DNA from: Fibrobacter succinogenes
Lineage (GTDB): Bacteria > Fibrobacterota > Fibrobacteria > Fibrobacterales > Fibrobacteraceae
Direction: 5' to 3'
NCBI GenBank assembly: GCA_902762795.1
Contig: CACWPM010000020.1
Coordinates: 1 to 49,528, forward strand
DNA: 49,528 bases
Below, in pieces: positions 296 through 45,433 of this stretch. Positions within the stretch are counted from its first letter, which is position 1, and each line of letters begins with the position of its first letter. The translations under genes were made by a program, and so were the position numbers. The notes beneath the pieces were generated by a model. It searched no databases. It saw nothing but the letters and a program-made list of their open reading frames with translations, and was not told the DNA's origin.

Positions 296-3200
296 ATGGG
301 TAACGGTCTCTATCGCATTGCAGCTTACGCTGTTGATTATGCCGTCCCGAATTTCGATGCGTACAATGCTATGAACCGCCTTGTCGATAATATATTCTCG
401 AATCCGCTGGACACTGCAATTTGGAGCGCTATTGCGCCTTACTCATTGAACGACACGACAATTTATGTTGAGTTCCGTGTGGATACTGCCGCCCCGGTAT
501 TTACGTTCCGCGAGACAAGGGCAGTCACCGCCGCCGATACGGTGAATTACGGCACTTACGTAAACTTGTCCGGCAAGTACGATGCTCTCCGCAAAAACGC
601 CCCTGCACGCGATTCCAGTTGGACTTATGTTTCCAAGGACAGCTTATTGCAAATCGGCTACACGGTTAGGGATTCTCTAAATGGTCGCGATTCCGCAGCG
701 GTGACTATCGGCTGGAACTTTGTGCATCTCCCGGATACGAACGTCATCGATCGTGCTGGCGATTCTGTGTGGGTGTTCGACTCGCTGGGCGGCAGTACGT
801 CTGGCGCTTGGACAGAAATGGCGGGCCTCCGCATGGCCGATGGCGAATACAGCGTCCGTGCGATTCTCCGCGACGAGGCGAAGAATGTCCGCCATGACGC
901 AGTCCCGAAACGAGTCCGCGTGGACCGTACCGCTCCGCAGATTGTCGGGCTCACGAGCGACCATCTCGTGTATATGGCTACGGATGGCGATTTTTCCGCG
1001 ACAATCCTAGTTTCAGAACGTGGCGACGTGGGCGTGAACCGCTCCGGCATGCATTGCAGCTACCGCGTCCTCGGCGGAGCCGATACGTCTTGGCATGAAA
1101 TCCGTAAGGGCAATCGCAAGCTCCTTTCGTCTGACACGGTAACGTTCACCATTGACAAGTCCGCCGTCGATACATCCCGTGGTACCCGTTATCTTGAAGC
1201 CGCCTGCGTCGATGCTGCCGGAAACGTTTCCGTCCGCACGGACATTTTCCACGTAGGCGCACGCTTCCCTCAGATTACTTATCCTTTGCCGGATTCTATT
1301 CAGAGCAATCTGAAATTTATCCCCATCGTGGGTATCGCTCCCAAGATGAATTCCGTAGATTCGCTCTCGTCCGTCTATCGTCTCCGCTACCGCATCGATA
1401 ACGATACTACATGGAGAACTGACAAAGTGCGAGTTGTCGCCGCGAACCGTTCTGAAAATGTGGATTACATTTCCCGTATATCGCAAAGTACCGAAGGTGT
1501 CCTCGGCTATCTTGAAAATGACGGCTTTGGTGACGAGGCTAAAATGACGGTCGAACTCGCCATAGCCTCTTGCGAAACCTGCAATGACTGGGCCGCCGTC
1601 ACTACGAACTTTGTCGTAGTCCAGCTCGGTACAAATTACAGCAAGCCGACGGTTGAATTTGCGGTCACGCGCAACGGCGCTGATGTTGGGACATTCAAGA
1701 CTGGCGACGGTCCCGTGGATATCTCCGTCCGGCTCAAGAACAAGTTTAATGGCAACTACATGCTTCGCGTTTATGCCGAAGATTCTAAACATCGCGGCAT
1801 TTTCGACGCGTCGAGAGAAAAGGTCTTCTACAATCCCTACTATGGAACGCCCACAGCCGCTGCCGATACCGCAATCTGGTTCTATGAAATGAACGGCAAG
1901 TATTACCTCAAGTGGAATAATCTGGACAAGGTAAATCTCAAGGTCGGCTACAACTCCTCGAAGTTCGGCGAGACCTGCGTTGGTTCTGCCGGAAGCATGG
2001 ACGCCTCCGACTGCTCGGCGGATCGTTCCCTGGTCGACTTATCGTCCATTCTCGATGTGTCTAAAGCCTATCTGTCCGATTATCCCGAATGGATGCCGCC
2101 AGCGTATATCGATAGTACGATGACCATCACGAAAAATTCCGGCGAAGTCGTTTTGGAATCGTCCGAAGCCTTCCGAGTGTATGTGGAACGCAAGGATGCA
2201 ACGGATACCGCTGCCTTGAACATTCCTGTCTATTTCGGCGAAAGCACGAAGCCCGGCTTTTACTGGGTTGAACACGTGGATTCGCTTGTCTCGCCGCTCA
2301 TGACCGGCTGGACCGTGAATCCGAACGCGTACGGACTTGATTACCGCTGGGATGGCATCGCCACGTCGGGCGCGTATCCTTCCGGCGATATCACGTTGTA
2401 TGCCGAAGTGACCGAGAATATCTTGGATAATCCTTTCGTAAACGTCGTCACGAAAACGCTCAAGGTCGAGCAGAAAGAAGCGGAATTGGTTGTTCGTGAT
2501 ACATTGCCCGATTACATTGCTCTTAAGCTTGTCGATTCGAATAAGGTATCTTCTGTTGCCGTAGATTCTAATAAAGCTGCATATATGCGAGATTCCATGA
2601 AGGTGTATTTCGGACTAAAGAACGCTGATGCTCGTGTGAAAATTAGTGTACTTGATTCTAATAAGAAGCAGTTAAAAATCCTTCTGGATTCAACATTGAG
2701 AGCGCATATGGGAGATTCTGCCTATTCAGTGACTTGGGATGGGAAAGATTCTTTGGGGAATGTACAATCCGTGGGTGAGTATTATATCAAATTCGAGTCT
2801 CCTTCGAATACTTTTGTAACCAAGAATGTTTTGTTTAAAATGAAACTTAGAAATGGGATGCTTGATGAAACCCCTGTAAATCCGATGGATCCCGGTCAGT
2901 CCGGTTTTTATGTTGCCGAGGCGGAGAAAGTCGCCGATGATATCTATCGTTATGAACCGTTTGCAGATTATCTTGTCGATGTTCAAATGAAGGGATGGTA
3001 TTTACCGAATTCAAGGCGATATGACCGCTTTGACGTGATGGGAAATGTATCCGGTACACAAAATATTCTCGGTTTCCGCCCGGAACGCTTTAGCCTTGGA
3101 ATTAAGCGACACAGAGATACGCTGGATTTGTTTATTCTTGTTAGGGTAAAATTTCCGTATACGGTTGCGGTAACTGATTGTGCTGATCTCAGTGATATAT

Positions 3201-6200
3201 TGTGGCAAAAATGTACGTTTGAATACGGTTCTGTAGAAGATTTCGCTTTCTTCGAGAAAAGGTTTACAAAGGATTCATTGTCTATTGATTCAACGTTTGA
3301 TATTAATCTTGCGGGGCGGGGCATTTATAACTTTTATAATACAGACATAGATGTTGTTGCCTGTTCGAGAAAAAAATGGGCTTCTATTTTTAAGGGTGTT
3401 GGGAAAAAGGCTTCTGAAACGTTTGAAAATGCGATGAGAGAATGTGAGTGGAATATGCGAAATGTATTTGGAGGTCCCGATGGAAATCACAAGTTCCTCA
3501 GGGATCCTGGTGGCTGTGATGATAGTGTTGCTTTTGCTGTTGATTATTATAGAGCTGATTCTTTGGAAAATGAATGTGATCCTAGAGAAAAAGATGGTTA
3601 TCTTGAATCCGTGTGTGTGTATCCAAAGCCAGAAGATTCTGACGATAAATATAATCCGAATAGAAAGCTCTTTGATGTGGTTTTAATTCCGGATTCGACC
3701 GGGAAATTTTTTGGAAATTGCCAAAATGTAAATGGACACAAAACATTCGATAGATATTGGACTCGTCCATTTTTTAACTTGCGTTTAACTATCCCCGAAT
3801 CCTACTGGAACGCTCCCTTTGGCATGGATAACCTTGTCAACCGCACAATCCGTTTTGACCATACCAACCAGACCATTTTCAATGAAAAAGGTAAGGACGG
3901 CTATTGGAATTCCGTAGTGAAAGATGGAAATAATGGTAATCCTGTAAATTCAGGAGTGAAAAATTACTATGACGGTTCCGAATGGCGGTTTAATCCTGCT
4001 TATGGACTTATAACCCCATATGAAGTTCAGCGTTTGATATTCTTCCCTGTCGATGTATATTCTGATGGTTCTAACGTTTTCCGTTTCGATGATGAGGGAA
4101 TAGTTAAAGATACTGTTGCATTTGGGTATTCATCTAGCTTTGAATTGAAGTTCTATGGCCATGATACCACGACACACCATTTCGAGGCTAAAGTCATAGG
4201 AAACCTGGCGAATCCGCTGGACACATCGGGGTGCGTTGTAGATTCTACGAAATTTGTGATGCGGACGGGTGCCCAAAACCCCTGCCAAATCAGTGTGACA
4301 AGTATAGGTCAAAAAGTTAAGAAAACGCCAGTTTTCACGCATGGCAATGTGCATTTCTTTGTAGGCATGAATCGCTTGTGGAGCGAAGTCGATAACGGAC
4401 ACCGCACATCAATTTCTTATCCGGCTGATTTTGCCACGTGGAAAAGTGCTGTTAAAGATTTGTGTAAAGATACTCTGGGCTGGGCTTCGTATAAGCAAAT
4501 AGTCGAAGGAAAAGATTCTTGTTACAAGTATTACGGATCTGGTTCTAGAGTCCACTACTATTTCAACGACTATAGCGATAGCCTTTGGAAGATTCATTTC
4601 TTGACGGACTCTTCACATTATTTCAGAAACTATGTCAATTCTCCGGGTGAAGTCTTTTCGCCAAAATCGATGGATGACGTGCTTGCTGTTGTAAAAAAGG
4701 ATCTCAACGGTAAGGATTTTGTGCTGAGTTACTTCCTTAATCCTGATAGCAGTGTTCCGGGGCGTACAGAATCTGAACCAGGAAGATTCTTTATTCACAT
4801 AGGGTACCTTGACAGTATAAGGAAGGCGTATAACGGGTCGGGCGTAACCATAGCCGATATAAAAGTCGAAATGGGTAAGTTTGATAGCAGTGTAGTTTCT
4901 TTTGATAAGGATTCTATGAACTTGTATATAACTGCTGAGCCTTGGACGGAGCATGTTTTGTATCGCCGTACAATCGATACCTCGAAGGCTATCCTTGAAC
5001 GCCCAAATACAAGAATTCTCCCGTTGCGGGATATCTATACATTCCGCGTTGATCCTTTATCGAACAATTGCGACAAGTCGCTATATTGCAAGATTGATAC
5101 CGTTCCTGAATTGTTGCCCAATCCGTGGATAAAGAATGCCGTTGTCGATACGGCTAGGCTTCTGCAAATTGATTTGACTGAACATCCTGTTCTTGAAATT
5201 TCGGGAGGCCGCGATTCTTCGGATCGTATAATCAGTTTCAAGGATACTGTTGTTGCGCGCCCGCCGGAACTTGTTGAAATCAGGGGGAAAAATCTTACAC
5301 ATAATCAGGTCTATACGCTGTCATTTTTGAACGACTCGACGTATTACTTGATTAGCGATACGTTGAAGTACGATGCGAACTGTGAAAAATATCCTGATGG
5401 ATCTTGCCATCTGGCGTGGTTTAACGTAAACCGTTTGCAGGGACGCACTCAGTTCCTCCTGACATGGGGTGGCGACAGCCCGACCAACGCGATGCACTTC
5501 AACATGTACGTGGGATCGAATGTCGAGCAAAATAGGGCTGGCGTGGTGAAATCCATGTACGGCGAACTCTCGGTGACGTTCCCGCAAGGTTCCATTGAAA
5601 AGTCCGAAGATTTCACGGTGCGTACGGTGAACGTCCAGAAAGATTACGGCTTTAACGTGTTCAAGAACATGGCGCTTACGGGACCTGTGATGGAAGTGTT
5701 GCCTTCGATGACTTTCAAGGATACGACAAAGCTACCGCGCATACAGATGAAGATATCCCGTCAGCAAATGGAAAACATGAATGTGACGCCGCAGACGTTG
5801 CGTTTGTACAAAGTCGATTTTGACAAGGCTGAATTTGTTCCGCTCGAAAATGCTTTATACGGGTTCCTCCATGCGGATGGTTCTGCGGTTATGAATGGAA
5901 CCGATACGCTGATGTGTCGCAGCGGTGACTATGGCGATGCTCGTTGCGCAGGCAAGAATTTTAGTTGGGATTACGTCCTGATTTCTGCCGAGACGCGTAC
6001 ATTCTCCGTGTTTGTCGCAATGGATTCACTTGCCGCCTCGATGCAGCGAACAGGTCTTGAAGTTTTGCCAACCATTGCCAAGGTGCCGGAACGCGAAGTC
6101 CGTGTCTATGGAATTGGAGATTTTAACTTGTATGTGGATGACGATTCGCTCTGGAACGACGAGGGCGACTTGACTCCGATGGTTCCGCTGGCGTTTACGC

Positions 6201-9200
6201 TGGATTCGAATGGTTCGGCTCATGTGACGCTTCCGGTGCGTGCCTCTGGAATTGATACAAATTATGTTTTCGCATTTGCGAAGGTGGATTCTGTTGAAAT
6301 GTTTGCGCCCGAGGTTGCTAGGGCGTTGACTGTGCCCGCTGTGTTCACATGCCATGTGCCATCGGATTCACTCTGGATGGGTATAGACAATGGCTACCTC
6401 GCTTATGGAGCCTCGTGCAGCCATCCGGGTTACGGGACGCTCTTGTTGTACAAGGAAAGTTCGTTGATTGCCGAAATCCGTGGCGAAATCCCTGACACGA
6501 TTAGGTTCGATGGCAAGAAGCGTGTCGGTGGTTCCGTGGTGGGAACTATTCCGCAGGGCCGTTATGAAACCCGCTATATCGGTGTTTCGGCATTGGATGA
6601 AGATGTTCAGCTAGCCGGACCTTCCGTGCGTACAGATGCTGCTCGCCCTGTTATCAGCTCGTTTGAAATTTCTGAGCGTGCTGATGTTCTTGACCGCATC
6701 TTTACTGTGAGAGCGAATGTTCGAGATCTGGAATCCGGTGTCGCTCGCGTCTCGGTTTCCGCAACGCTCGGAAATGCGTTAATCAGGAATGCGCCGCTTT
6801 TGCCGACGCAGTTGGTTCCGGATTCTTCGGGAAATGTTTCTGTTGAAATCCGCTTGACCCGCCAAGAGCTTTCTCTGTGCAACGGCTGCAAACTTTCACT
6901 TGAAATGCGTGCCGAAGATTTCGGGCATAATCATACCGAGAAGAGTTATCAGTCTGGATCGCTTCTCCCGTATCCGCAGGGCATTGTGCTATGGTATCCG
7001 TCACGCGAAGGAACGGGTACGGTTGCGTATGAGTATGTTGCCAATATTCATAATTTGAACTTGAAGCCCATTGCGTCTCCGTGGCTGAGTGATGAAGGCA
7101 TTTACCTCTCGAATCCGGATGATTATGCGGTTGGAAACGGTCTTGTGTCTTTCAATATGTTGAACGAATATTCCTTTGAAGCAAGGATTAAGAACGGTAA
7201 CGCGAATAAGTCCGGCTGGTTCAGGGTACTTGGTTTTAATAGCGATGACGGGTTTGATATGGAATTACGAGTGCAAGGGCGCAAATTGCAGTTCTCCGAT
7301 GGCTTGAATGTCTGGGAAACGGCGAAAGACGTTCTGCCTCCAGAAAAGGAGTGGGCGCATGTAGTGGTGACGGTGGATTCTACAAAAGTCCGTTTCTACG
7401 TCAATGGGGAACTTGTATCCGATTTGATTTCCGTGCCGTTTGTACGTGATATTGAAGGCGGATTCTCTATCGGTGCCAACAATAGCAACTCGTTTGTCGG
7501 AAATGTTGCCGACATAAGAATGTATAGGAAGGCTCTTTCTAGCGAGGAAGTGTTCGCTTTGTCGCAGCCGGTGTCTGATGTAGAAGAAATCGTTGAAATT
7601 GTCACAGTCCCCATGGTTACCGTTGATGGCGGCGATGGTTTTGAACCGGAGTTTTCTTGTTCCGTGGCGGGTAACCGTTACTTTGAGGCTTCGCGTGGTG
7701 GAGCAAAGCTGACGATGGATGTTTTGGTAGAAAAGGCGGGTACTTACAAGGTAATGATGTATGTGCGCTCGGCGAGGCTTTCGTCTGCCAATGTTGCGGT
7801 ATTGCCTTCGTCTGAAATGCGCTATACGGGGTCTGTGCAGCTTTCCCCTGTTTGGCGAACGGCTTCTGTTCCGGAAATTTCCATGAACCTCTCTGCCGGA
7901 TTGCATACGGTAACGCTCGAAGCCCCCGAAGGTTTACAGATTGCCGGCTTCGCTCTTGTTACGGATAACGTTCCTGCATCTTCTATTGCCTGGAATTCGG
8001 GAATGGAAAATTCCGAAAGGACGGTCAAGACGTTTGTCCGTTATGAAGGTTTTGCAGACAAGAAAGTATTGCAACCGCGTGTTCGCCTGAAAAATATTTC
8101 GAACTCCCAAATAAAAGGCTATTCTGTCCGCTATTATTTCCGAGGCGAAGAAGCTTCGATGGCTCGCGTACACCCGTACTATCCGCATGATACGATTGGA
8201 CTTGCGGTGCATTCTGAAAGTGCTCGCACAGGGTATGTCGAGTGGGCGTTTCGTGACGGGAAAATTCCTGCTGGCGGAACGGTCTTCAATGGCGATGGTC
8301 CGCATTTCGGTGTGCATTACGAAGATTGGGCTCAGTGGAATCCTTACGATGATCCGTCCTTTGTCGAAAATGCTGCAACGAGTTTTGTCGAGGATAACGG
8401 GATTATCGTTCTCGATGCGGACAAGCGCTTGATTGGCGGATCGTGTGTCGAGATGGAAGATTCTATTTCGGCCGAAGTCAAGGCGCGTGTCTATGCTGTT
8501 GAAACACGCAATGATAACATGGCGAGCGAAATCCAGATGAAGGTCGAAAATGTGGGTAACATAACGTTGAAAAATTACGATGTCCGCTATTACTTTTTCC
8601 TTGAAGGTGGGCTTGCTCCAGAGTTCAATGCGTATAATTTGCCAGATGGCGTAACGGCTGCGATTGAAAATATCGGCGATGGACGCTGGCAAGTTTCGTT
8701 GCATGCTTCGAAACCGCTTGTTGCGGGAGGTTCCTGGAAGAACCTTGCTCATTTTGTGCTCCATTGCGAAAACTGGAACGATATCTGGAACGCATCCGAT
8801 GATCCGAGCCGCTTTGGGCTAGGACGGAGCATGGTCGAAGCTGTGGGCGTAAATGTGTTCGATTCCTTGGGTAACCGCATCTACGGTAATGAGCCTGTTT
8901 GGCCCGAAATTATTAGGGCGATACCGCCTTCTTGTGACGGATGTTCATCGAATCCAATTTCTGTCCCGGATATTGGACTTGAGCCGAAAAAAGACAGAAT
9001 TCCTGTCCACCGGACGGATGACGGTCTTGTGATTGAAATGGCGCAATACACCAATATCTCACTTTCGCTGGTGAACGTGAACGGCATCCCGGTCAAGAGC
9101 CTGTATTCGGGAACTCTCGCTCCAGGGCAACAGTTTGTCCGTGTTGATTGGAGCGGCATTGACTTGAACAAAACATATCTCATGCTTCGTGTGAATGGAT

Positions 9201-9235
9201 CTATCAAATCAACAAAACTCTTGTCGTTACTTTAA
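296..9235 (+). CDS. Giant multidomain secreted protein with Ig-like, LamG and CBM-like modules and a type IX-type sorting tail
   Basis: A 2979-residue frame, in frame with the fragment before the TAG at 263-265, so the true start is probably left of the window and ATG 296 is only the first ATG after the stop. Visible parts: Ig-like repeats near the front (VDTAAPVF, VDRTAPQI); a FlgD-like Ig region around residues 770-845 (VTWDGKDSLGN); a LamG/concanavalin-like domain around 2230-2420 (ending FVGNVADIRMYRKAL); a CBM6-like sandwich around 2445-2560; two consecutive modules around 2565-2720 and 2740-2866 that resemble CBM3 (VRYYF, WNPYDDPS, WNASDDPS); and a C-terminal domain of about 65 residues ending STKLLSLL, like the type A sorting domain of type IX secretion. 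Role inferred: cell-surface or secreted adhesin binding plant polysaccharide. No catalytic domain was recognised. A short intergenic stretch separates it from the next gene on the same strand. Confidence 0.85.
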   Translation: MGNGLYRIAAYAVDYAVPNFDAYNAMNRLVDNIFSNPLDTAIWSAIAPYSLNDTTIYVEFRVDTAAPVFTFRETRAVTAADTVNYGTYVNLSGKYDALRKNAPARDSSWTYVSKDSLLQIGYTVRDSLNGRDSAAVTIGWNFVHLPDTNVIDRAGDSVWVFDSLGGSTSGAWTEMAGLRMADGEYSVRAILRDEAKNVRHDAVPKRVRVDRTAPQIVGLTSDHLVYMATDGDFSATILVSERGDVGVNRSGMHCSYRVLGGADTSWHEIRKGNRKLLSSDTVTFTIDKSAVDTSRGTRYLEAACVDAAGNVSVRTDIFHVGARFPQITYPLPDSIQSNLKFIPIVGIAPKMNSVDSLSSVYRLRYRIDNDTTWRTDKVRVVAANRSENVDYISRISQSTEGVLGYLENDGFGDEAKMTVELAIASCETCNDWAAVTTNFVVVQLGTNYSKPTVEFAVTRNGADVGTFKTGDGPVDISVRLKNKFNGNYMLRVYAEDSKHRGIFDASREKVFYNPYYGTPTAAADTAIWFYEMNGKYYLKWNNLDKVNLKVGYNSSKFGETCVGSAGSMDASDCSADRSLVDLSSILDVSKAYLSDYPEWMPPAYIDSTMTITKNSGEVVLESSEAFRVYVERKDATDTAALNIPVYFGESTKPGFYWVEHVDSLVSPLMTGWTVNPNAYGLDYRWDGIATSGAYPSGDITLYAEVTENILDNPFVNVVTKTLKVEQKEAELVVRDTLPDYIALKLVDSNKVSSVAVDSNKAAYMRDSMKVYFGLKNADARVKISVLDSNKKQLKILLDSTLRAHMGDSAYSVTWDGKDSLGNVQSVGEYYIKFESPSNTFVTKNVLFKMKLRNGMLDETPVNPMDPGQSGFYVAEAEKVADDIYRYEPFADYLVDVQMKGWYLPNSRRYDRFDVMGNVSGTQNILGFRPERFSLGIKRHRDTLDLFILVRVKFPYTVAVTDCADLSDILWQKCTFEYGSVEDFAFFEKRFTKDSLSIDSTFDINLAGRGIYNFYNTDIDVVACSRKKWASIFKGVGKKASETFENAMRECEWNMRNVFGGPDGNHKFLRDPGGCDDSVAFAVDYYRADSLENECDPREKDGYLESVCVYPKPEDSDDKYNPNRKLFDVVLIPDSTGKFFGNCQNVNGHKTFDRYWTRPFFNLRLTIPESYWNAPFGMDNLVNRTIRFDHTNQTIFNEKGKDGYWNSVVKDGNNGNPVNSGVKNYYDGSEWRFNPAYGLITPYEVQRLIFFPVDVYSDGSNVFRFDDEGIVKDTVAFGYSSSFELKFYGHDTTTHHFEAKVIGNLANPLDTSGCVVDSTKFVMRTGAQNPCQISVTSIGQKVKKTPVFTHGNVHFFVGMNRLWSEVDNGHRTSISYPADFATWKSAVKDLCKDTLGWASYKQIVEGKDSCYKYYGSGSRVHYYFNDYSDSLWKIHFLTDSSHYFRNYVNSPGEVFSPKSMDDVLAVVKKDLNGKDFVLSYFLNPDSSVPGRTESEPGRFFIHIGYLDSIRKAYNGSGVTIADIKVEMGKFDSSVVSFDKDSMNLYITAEPWTEHVLYRRTIDTSKAILERPNTRILPLRDIYTFRVDPLSNNCDKSLYCKIDTVPELLPNPWIKNAVVDTARLLQIDLTEHPVLEISGGRDSSDRIISFKDTVVARPPELVEIRGKNLTHNQVYTLSFLNDSTYYLISDTLKYDANCEKYPDGSCHLAWFNVNRLQGRTQFLLTWGGDSPTNAMHFNMYVGSNVEQNRAGVVKSMYGELSVTFPQGSIEKSEDFTVRTVNVQKDYGFNVFKNMALTGPVMEVLPSMTFKDTTKLPRIQMKISRQQMENMNVTPQTLRLYKVDFDKAEFVPLENALYGFLHADGSAVMNGTDTLMCRSGDYGDARCAGKNFSWDYVLISAETRTFSVFVAMDSLAASMQRTGLEVLPTIAKVPEREVRVYGIGDFNLYVDDDSLWNDEGDLTPMVPLAFTLDSNGSAHVTLPVRASGIDTNYVFAFAKVDSVEMFAPEVARALTVPAVFTCHVPSDSLWMGIDNGYLAYGASCSHPGYGTLLLYKESSLIAEIRGEIPDTIRFDGKKRVGGSVVGTIPQGRYETRYIGVSALDEDVQLAGPSVRTDAARPVISSFEISERADVLDRIFTVRANVRDLESGVARVSVSATLGNALIRNAPLLPTQLVPDSSGNVSVEIRLTRQELSLCNGCKLSLEMRAEDFGHNHTEKSYQSGSLLPYPQGIVLWYPSREGTGTVAYEYVANIHNLNLKPIASPWLSDEGIYLSNPDDYAVGNGLVSFNMLNEYSFEARIKNGNANKSGWFRVLGFNSDDGFDMELRVQGRKLQFSDGLNVWETAKDVLPPEKEWAHVVVTVDSTKVRFYVNGELVSDLISVPFVRDIEGGFSIGANNSNSFVGNVADIRMYRKALSSEEVFALSQPVSDVEEIVEIVTVPMVTVDGGDGFEPEFSCSVAGNRYFEASRGGAKLTMDVLVEKAGTYKVMMYVRSARLSSANVAVLPSSEMRYTGSVQLSPVWRTASVPEISMNLSAGLHTVTLEAPEGLQIAGFALVTDNVPASSIAWNSGMENSERTVKTFVRYEGFADKKVLQPRVRLKNISNSQIKGYSVRYYFRGEEASMARVHPYYPHDTIGLAVHSESARTGYVEWAFRDGKIPAGGTVFNGDGPHFGVHYEDWAQWNPYDDPSFVENAATSFVEDNGIIVLDADKRLIGGSCVEMEDSISAEVKARVYAVETRNDNMASEIQMKVENVGNITLKNYDVRYYFFLEGGLAPEFNAYNLPDGVTAAIENIGDGRWQVSLHASKPLVAGGSWKNLAHFVLHCENWNDIWNASDDPSRFGLGRSMVEAVGVNVFDSLGNRIYGNEPVWPEIIRAIPPSCDGCSSNPISVPDIGLEPKKDRIPVHRTDDGLVIEMAQYTNISLSLVNVNGIPVKSLYSGTLAPGQQFVRVDWSGIDLNKTYLMLRVNGSIKSTKLLSLL

Positions 9236-17777: not shown

Positions 17778-17835
17778 GGTTGCCAATTTAGCAATTGGGG
17801 ATATGCGAAAAACTCTTTTTTTTGAAAAATGACGA

Positions 17836-18095
17836 TTTTTACGTCAAATTTCTCTTGAATTTGAATTTTTTTACGTAATTTTTTAATGTTGTTTGTAAAA
17901 TTTAAGACGTTTTTTGTCATTTTGTGAGTTTGTCTGCGAAATGTGGGCGGATGGCTACTGTTTTTTCGTGAAAAAAGTATGTTGAAACGACATTTTACGC
18001 AGATTTCTACTGTTTTTTAACCGCCTTGTTGTTAACTTGTTTAAAATTTTACGTCAAAATCTTTGGATTTTCCCCGTTTTTTACGTAAAAATTGG
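17836..18095 (+). promoter_or_regulatory. AT-rich intergenic region with repeated TTTTACG motifs
   Basis: Five copies of TTTTACG occur (ACG at 17841, 17873, 17998, 18051, 18083). Two of them form a pair (TTTTACGTCAAA then TTTTACGTAA, 32 bases apart) that is repeated 210 bases later with the same spacing. CTACTGTTTTTT also occurs twice (17955-17966 and 18007-18018). No gene is seen from 17778 to 18276. The region lies between divergent aroD and clpP and could hold their promoters and operators. Confidence 0.55.
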
Positions 18096-18147
18096 CCAAA
18101 AAAAGAAATTTGCTTTTTTTTCAACGAGTTTTCTCACCCCTATTCGG

Positions 18148-18238
18148 CCTACAGCCTACTGTTTACCAGCTCCTAATCCCTAAAACCTAACCCCTAATCA
18201 CTGTCTACTTCCTGCTTCTTACTTCCTACTGCTAATTG
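18148..18238 (-). repeat. Thirteen-unit degenerate heptanucleotide array upstream of clpP
   Basis: Thirteen 7-base units in unbroken register, e.g. CCTACAG, CCTACTG at the left end and CCTACTG, CTAATTG at the right. The units are TAGG-rich when read on the minus strand. They end 38 bases before the clpP start, so they lie in or next to its promoter. Confidence 0.8.
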
Positions 18239-18276
18239 CGAATTTTCTAAATTATACCGGAACAAAAGGAATATTT

Positions 18277-44569: not shown

Positions 44570-45433
44570 ATGATGAGATCAGTTACAGAATACAAGAACT
44601 ATCGCGAATACGTCCTGGACTATTACCAGGAACGCAAACGCTGCTCTGCGTTTACGTGGCGCGAGTTTGCGAAAGATGCCGGATTTGCATCGGGATCGTA
44701 CCTGAAGCTTGTATGCGACGGCAAGACGCGCTTGCGTGAGGAAAGTGCAAAGAAGACTGCGCTTGCGATGGGTCTTGTTGGTTTTGAATTCGATTATTTT
44801 CTTTTGATGGTGCGTTACGAAAATGCCAAGACGGATCGCGAGAAAAAGAAGTACTTTGAACAAATGCAGGCACTTGGTGAGGCCAGCCGTGTGAAGATAC
44901 TCGGCAGCGAGATGTACACGTTCTATGAGACGTGGAAACATTCTGTTGTTCGTGAATTGGCGGTCGCAATGCCTGGCGCAAAGCCAAGCGATATCGCGAA
45001 AGTTTGCAAACCTGCGATTTCTGCGGCGGATGTGAGCGAAAGTCTGCATTTCCTCACGAAGGCGGGACTTTTGACGCGCGATATCAAGGGCGATTATCAC
45101 CAGACGAACCGTTCGCTTTCTACAGGGCGGTTGAACGTGGTTGCCGTGGCTGTGCATTCCCTGCTCCGCCAAATGGGTGAATTTGCGCTAGAGGCTTTGG
45201 ATAAACTCCCGATTTCGGAACGGCACTTTAGCGGGATTACGATGGGTGTGACTGAGGAAAGTTATGCCAGGATTGTTGAAGAAATTGCGGCTTTTCGCAA
45301 GCGGATTGTCACGATTGTCGCGGATGAGAAAAAGCCGGAAAAAATTTGCCGATTGAATTTTCAGTTTTTCCCGCTGACGGAAAAGATTGAATACGGTAAT
45401 ATGGATTTACAAAATAAAATGAAAGGAGAGTAG
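44570..45433 (+). CDS. TIGR02147-family protein, probable DNA-binding regulator
   Basis: 287 residues; ATG 44570 or 44573. TAAATT lies 6 bases before, and no ribosome site is seen. The front has the family opening (YKNYREYVLDYYQERK ... FTWREFAKDAGFASGSYLKL), which looks like a helix-turn-helix; the rest is helical, with a DVSESLHFLTKAGLLTRD winged-helix-like stretch. This family is abundant in Fibrobacter. The gene ends 8 bases before the FISUMP lipoprotein gene and carries that gene's ribosome site (GGAG) in its last codons, so the two are coupled and it may regulate the lipoprotein (inference). Confidence 0.88.
   Translation: MMRSVTEYKNYREYVLDYYQERKRCSAFTWREFAKDAGFASGSYLKLVCDGKTRLREESAKKTALAMGLVGFEFDYFLLMVRYENAKTDREKKKYFEQMQALGEASRVKILGSEMYTFYETWKHSVVRELAVAMPGAKPSDIAKVCKPAISAADVSESLHFLTKAGLLTRDIKGDYHQTNRSLSTGRLNVVAVAVHSLLRQMGEFALEALDKLPISERHFSGITMGVTEESYARIVEEIAAFRKRIVTIVADEKKPEKICRLNFQFFPLTEKIEYGNMDLQNKMKGE

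Follow-up and report, generated by a model that had tools for sequence, protein, structure and literature searches.

Dispersed chromosomal sites bound by a dedicated protein are known from SlmA of E. coli, with about 24–52 sites (SBS), from Noc of B. subtilis, with about 70 (NBS) (PMC4726725; PMC3116907), and from MatP, with 23 matS sites (PMC3116907). Looped operators, such as those of ara, gal, lambda CI and pLS20 Rco, pair two multi-site operators, and the distance between these has to preserve helical phase (PMC4207663); GalR binds also at sites away from the genes it regulates (PMC5110547). The literature searched yielded no account of dispersed elements with four helically phased sites, nor of the Fibrobacter repeat described below. 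Here we report that a feature adjacent to clpP, lying in a 49,528-nucleotide stretch of Fibrobacter succinogenes DNA (the window), is one copy of a dispersed intergenic Fibrobacter element and not a local oddity. The element resembles SBS and NBS in comprising tens of dispersed 12–14 bp palindromes, putatively read by one specific protein and not tied to neighbouring genes, but those are single sites, whereas each Fibrobacter element has four phased sites within about 300 bp, and the recognition sequence differs. With matS it shares a number of about 20 specific palindromic sites with a presumed part in chromosome organisation, although matS is again a single site and is confined to the Ter region, while the Fibrobacter elements lie on both arms. 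Looped operators have in common with it the whole-turn separation of sites, yet they occur at one or a few regulatory loci, in contrast to at least 20 equivalent Fibrobacter copies with no common gene context.

The window copy lies in the intergenic region (17786–18276, about 490 bp) between aroD on the minus strand, whose TIGR01093 match falls slightly below the cut-off of that model, and clpP on the plus strand, which is followed by ftsY. Its parts are as follows.

17805–18128, plus strand: the complete element, two site pairs in phase between conserved flanks, oriented as the family consensus.
17815–17836, plus strand: left outer flank, an A-tract and G/C triplet adjoining site 1, from the alignment of copies.
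17837–17848, plus strand: site 1, TTTTACGTCAAA, with outer half TTTTAC and inner half GTCAAA.
17869–17880, minus strand: site 2, TTTTACGTAATT, 32 bp from site 1, with which it forms an inverted pair.
17889–17895, plus strand: left inner box TTGTTTG (family consensus aayGTTGTcTGTAA), in a flank 81% identical among orthologs.
17896–18036, no strand assigned: middle, 72% identical among orthologs, near background divergence, its length in whole turns.
18037–18043, plus strand: right inner box TTGTTTA (family consensus TTAaTTTGTATG), a direct repeat of the left box.
18047–18058, plus strand: site 3, TTTTACGTCAAA, 210 bp or 20 turns from site 1.
18079–18090, minus strand: site 4, TTTTACGTAAAA, 32 bp from site 3, with which it forms an inverted pair.
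18091–18124, plus strand: right outer flank, ATGGC-like and then AAATTTGC or a T-run, from the alignment of copies.

The initial annotation had drawn attention to motif pairs with spacings of 32, 32 and 210 bases, and this arithmetic is exact, with TTTTACG at 17837, 17869, 18047 and 18079 of the plus strand; site 2 and site 3 are 178 bp, or 17 turns, apart. The fifth TTTTACG and two copies of CTACTGTTTTTT that it placed between the pairs are likewise present (at 17993, and at 17955 and 18007, respectively), are missing in the orthologous element of G086 and lie outside the consensus of the other copies, a comparison by which they are incidental. It had also named an equal frequency of TTTTACG in all AT-rich intergenic DNA as a point on which its reading would fall: by itself the heptamer is not enriched in the window (14 occurrences against 9.7 expected), and what is exceptional is its paired, phased arrangement, since among 5000 dinucleotide shuffles of the 490-bp intergenic DNA a pair at 30–33 bp arose in one and two pairs in none. 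No further such pair was found elsewhere in the window.

Between the element and clpP, at 18150–18250, lies a C/T/A-rich, degenerate, tandem-like tract (CCTAATCCCTAAAACCTAACCCCTAATCAC...), and similar tracts recur on either strand in intergenic regions of related Fibrobacter genomes. About 20–30 nt before clpP (18240–18262) stands ATTTTCTAAATT, which recurs, slightly altered, upstream of clpP in almost every Fibrobacter genome examined and is likely, from this conservation, a promoter element of the genus. The window also holds, at 296–9232, an open reading frame of 2979 amino acids with almost no NCBIfam match.

Copies of the element, all intergenic, are built alike, from two inverted pairs of TTTTACGTNAAA that make up four 12-bp sites, with 31–33 bp between the sites of a pair. 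In the aligned copies the left half runs from an A-tract and G/C triplet through TTTTACGTnAAA, 20 nt, TTTnACGTAAAA and AATTTTaayGTTGTcTGTAA, and about 100–130 unconserved nucleotides separate it from a right half of TTAaTTTGTATGaAAtTTTACGTnAAA, 20 nt, TTTnACGTAAAA, GGC and AAAATTTG. The TTGTnTG boxes are direct repeats, so that the element has a direction. Between ortholog pairs, identity is 92% in the sites, 72% in the middle, which aligns with few gaps, and 62% outside the element; by these alignments the middle keeps its length while its sequence drifts.

Elements occur all over the window's genome (G000), where the 336-bp core of the window copy, whose element measures about 320 bp, recurs at about 20 more places. 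At least 20 copies are present there, 18 of them complete, and many have counterparts at orthologous positions in related species. In an initial scan of 25 genomes, other genera included, the element turned up in the window's genus only, and a degenerate one-pair pattern matched 10 of 80 Fibrobacter genomes, against none for the reversed-pattern control. A profile built from the 18 copies gave many matches in G000, G001, G004, G045, G081, G086 and G088, counts that are lower bounds, since scoring covered only 56 candidates in each genome and the training set comprised one motif type. Copy number differs strongly among Fibrobacter lineages, in genomes that are mostly draft metagenome assemblies, and the named records with matches are mostly Fibrobacter MAGs. 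Viral contigs searched with both motifs gave no match, nor did the plasmids searched, and matches in Oscillospiraceae and Alteromonas carry one pair only. A contig assigned to a Bacteroidia MAG (L184) begins with a complete Fibrobacter element (positions 1–460), 96% identical over 461 bp to an element of G086; this is probably a chimeric assembly, transfer being less likely. At one locus of G000 (L085, on contig C3; orthologs L143 and L165), twin elements in the same orientation stand 1.2 kb apart, enclosing, just before trpS, a gene of 276 amino acids with no Pfam or NCBIfam match; at least three species (G000, G086 and G088) share this arrangement, and G004 and G081 have twin matches at a similar distance.

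Helical phasing, suspected in the annotation from one locus, is strongly supported by copies across the genome and by orthologs. Distances between site 2 and site 3 fall into classes of 136, 146–148, 155–159, 165–169 and 177–179 bp, that is, 13, 14, 15, 16 and 17 turns, with the 18 complete copies of G000 at 147, 157, 167–169 and 178–179 bp and the 13-turn class present in G001 and G045. The element finder accepted pair offsets of 100–330 bp and imposed no spacing classes, and where copies were found with motif and intra-pair spacing fixed, the inter-pair distance was left free. For 55 complete copies from G000, G088 and G086 the best period is 10.40 bp (R=0.88), and none of 20000 smoothed bootstrap resamples was as periodic; because Rayleigh p-values assume independence, the value we report counts each ortholog cluster once (n=32, p~1e-11). 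An independent set from the TTTACGGGAA lineage behaves in the same way (146, 155–157, 167 and 177–178 bp; n=15, R=0.95). Loss of the spacing in relatives would have spoken against the annotation, and relatives keep it, in whole turns: in 29 ortholog comparisons with both flanks conserved, spacings differed by 0 (10 comparisons), 1 (9), 2 (4), 10 (3) or 11 bp (3), and in none by 3–9 bp. The window copy itself has an offset of 210 bp in G000 and G088 and of 199 bp in G086. The suggestion of a protein-binding array thus draws strong support from the genome copies and orthologs, sequence comparisons that point to a bound protein.

The sites themselves are conserved unequally. Of 380 sites, 379 have the constant outer half GTAAAA. 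The inner half is lineage-specific, with GTA/GTC, GTG or GGG followed by AAA: mostly GTAAAA/GTCAAA in G000, G086 and G004, a mixture of types in G088 and G045, and nearly all GTGAAA in G001, G014, G073, G074, G056, G090 and G006, where few copies were read. A further lineage (G024 and G061–G064) has TTTACGGGAA/TTCCCGTAAA pairs, absent from G000, and this pattern and the G000-type pattern are mutually exclusive between genomes. Single loci point to further variants and mixtures: GTATAA in G047, CTATAAA in G011 and GGG together with GTG in G064 and G070. A fixed outer half beside a lineage-specific inner half points to a co-evolving sequence-specific protein, and the simplest explanation would be that the cognate protein changed specificity and the element copies followed. 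The constancy of the outer half further suggests that the two halves may be read by two different modules or subunits.

The genes beside the elements, about 20 pairs, are unrelated (ddl, mnmE, trpS, rsmB, tgt, cellulases and others) and their flanking order may be divergent, tandem or convergent, with several copies between convergent genes. TIGR02147 (Fsuc_second, DUF4423) proteins adjoin three elements (L087, 6810–7820; L089, 6958–7824; L137, 3524–4354), and another is encoded at the far end of the window (44570–45430); each Fibrobacter genome encodes dozens of paralogues of this family, and no mention of it was found in the literature searched. Several relatives are without the element at the clpP, cvfB or DUF58 locus, where their intergenic regions are short, and the element is therefore dispensable at any one place. 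Orthologs of the flanking genes, mapped on G070 and G073, are scattered over large contigs and both arms; by GC skew, the G073 terminus lies at about 585 kb on contig 1. SBS and NBS keep away from the terminus; one Fibrobacter locus is about 130 kb from the skew-inferred terminus and the rest are scattered, in a small sample with positions taken from element-poor genomes. Among the loci mapped on G070 and G073 no clustering at ori or ter was seen, nor any replication-strand bias (7 with and 4 against the direction of replication). Of the two roles raised in the annotation, a chromosome-maintenance site accommodates this distribution better than control of clpP and aroD, although no position or strand bias was seen.

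We consider it somewhat more probable than not that this is a dispersed protein-binding element at which a putative oligomeric protein joins the pairs into a micro-loop, with a chromosome-wide role. A sequence-specific oligomeric protein would occupy all four sites; since a pair extends over about 3 turns and 13–17 whole turns separate the two pairs, all the sites are turned to one side of the helix, and the protein could then close or wrap the roughly 170 bp between pairs into a micro-loop. With at least 20 of these complexes distributed around the chromosome, their function would be chromosome-wide, in nucleoid architecture, segregation or the control of division, and not the control of neighbouring genes. 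From the observed family, its phasing and whole-turn spacing, its orthologous loci, the switching of inner halves and the want of a common gene context, we infer binding of all sites by one protein family, formation of a loop and a chromosome-wide role. Scattered loci, unrelated neighbours and relatives with empty loci fit a distributed role better than single-gene control, but phasing of sites is likewise characteristic of local transcriptional operators, copy number varies between lineages and the element is absent at several loci of relatives. The phasing could alternatively reflect wrapping or a stacked array instead of a loop.

The annotation's other proposal, looping control of the adjacent clpP and aroD, is unlikely, also when widened to a regulon of the 20 or so copies. 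The window copy does lie between divergent genes, and looping operators with two sites need correct phase (PMC4207663), but unrelated neighbours in all orientations, convergent genes included, make local control of this kind unlikely, and in G004, G014, G070 and G073 clpP lacks the element yet retains a conserved TTTTCTA(A/C)ATT box of its own upstream. Quite improbable, too, is a MITE-like mobile element whose ends are transposase sites and which spread in several lineages and is now fixed. Dispersal, orientation, a size near 320 bp, patchy copy number among lineages and the short intergenic regions of relatives without it would suit such an origin, but there are no recent, near-identical copies (within G000 the best match of the window core is 82% over 92 bp), the copies are old and at orthologous loci, with phase, sites and spacing maintained after insertion, and there is no space for a transposase gene between the pairs; filled and empty loci were compared, and intergenic turnover is too great to define boundaries or a target duplication. 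The res and cer sites have accessory sites in a geometry of whole-turn spacing, which the inverted pairs and strict spacing of the element recall, but a site-specific recombination site of this sort is very improbable here: the gene between the same-orientation twins is retained in G000, G086 and G088, which together with the twin matches of G004 and G081 indicates that the copies do not recombine efficiently, and the middle has no conserved crossover core. A non-coding RNA or paired-hairpin terminator deserves almost no credence, for although each pair is an inverted repeat able to form a stem, pair partners lack covariation (inner-base agreement is 65% within pairs and 67% between them), on which ground an RNA hairpin was rejected, and moreover the middle is not conserved, no Rfam family matches and whole-turn spacing has no obvious meaning for RNA.

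Several known proteins were considered as the binder of the element, and ParB and Lrp/AsnC are excluded. ParB seemed a candidate in that the inner half GTGAAA of the GTG-type lineages equals a half-site of parS (consensus TGTTTCACGTGAAACA, near ori), but the genomes examined keep separate canonical or one-mismatch parS clusters next to parB, with the exception of G081 and G009, which offer little flanking sequence; the ParB recognition helix KSRSAITNALRLLKLP is, besides, identical in G000, G001 and G063, whose element motifs differ. A Noc-like paralogue was rejected, as G000 and G088 have one ParB_N protein, the same as element-poor genomes. Arrays bound by Lrp/AsnC proteins set dimer sites at roughly three-turn spacing, as the element does, but the element-rich genomes G000, G086, G088, G001 and G004 have no AsnC_trans_reg match, in a search where one of 80 genomes passed the cut-off and controls were positive in 11 of 14. 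TIGR02147/DUF4423 proteins are not favoured, since an SGNH-adjacent copy is 94–96% identical across genomes with different motifs, and their dozens of paralogues are a further point against them. The element thus lacks the tested defining features of parS, NBS, matS (its loci, on both arms, are not restricted to the terminus) and Lrp arrays, and would work like a phased looping site.

A more specific version of the micro-loop reading is tentative, with chances a little short of even: a Fibrobacter-specific chromosome-organising system, in which a putative oligomeric protein would build dozens of standard-sized micro-loops and recognition of the inner half-site would have switched between lineages, each genome's copies following. 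As comparative-genomic evidence for a phase-dependent DNA complex in living cells, the retention of whole-turn spacing over evolution, with orthologs exactly one turn apart and nothing between, is unusually clear, and the switch of one half-site across whole lineages, with the other half fixed, amounts to a natural experiment in protein–DNA co-evolution. For a phylum in which molecular genetics is little developed, the element also offers a ready bait with which to find a chromosome-organising protein.
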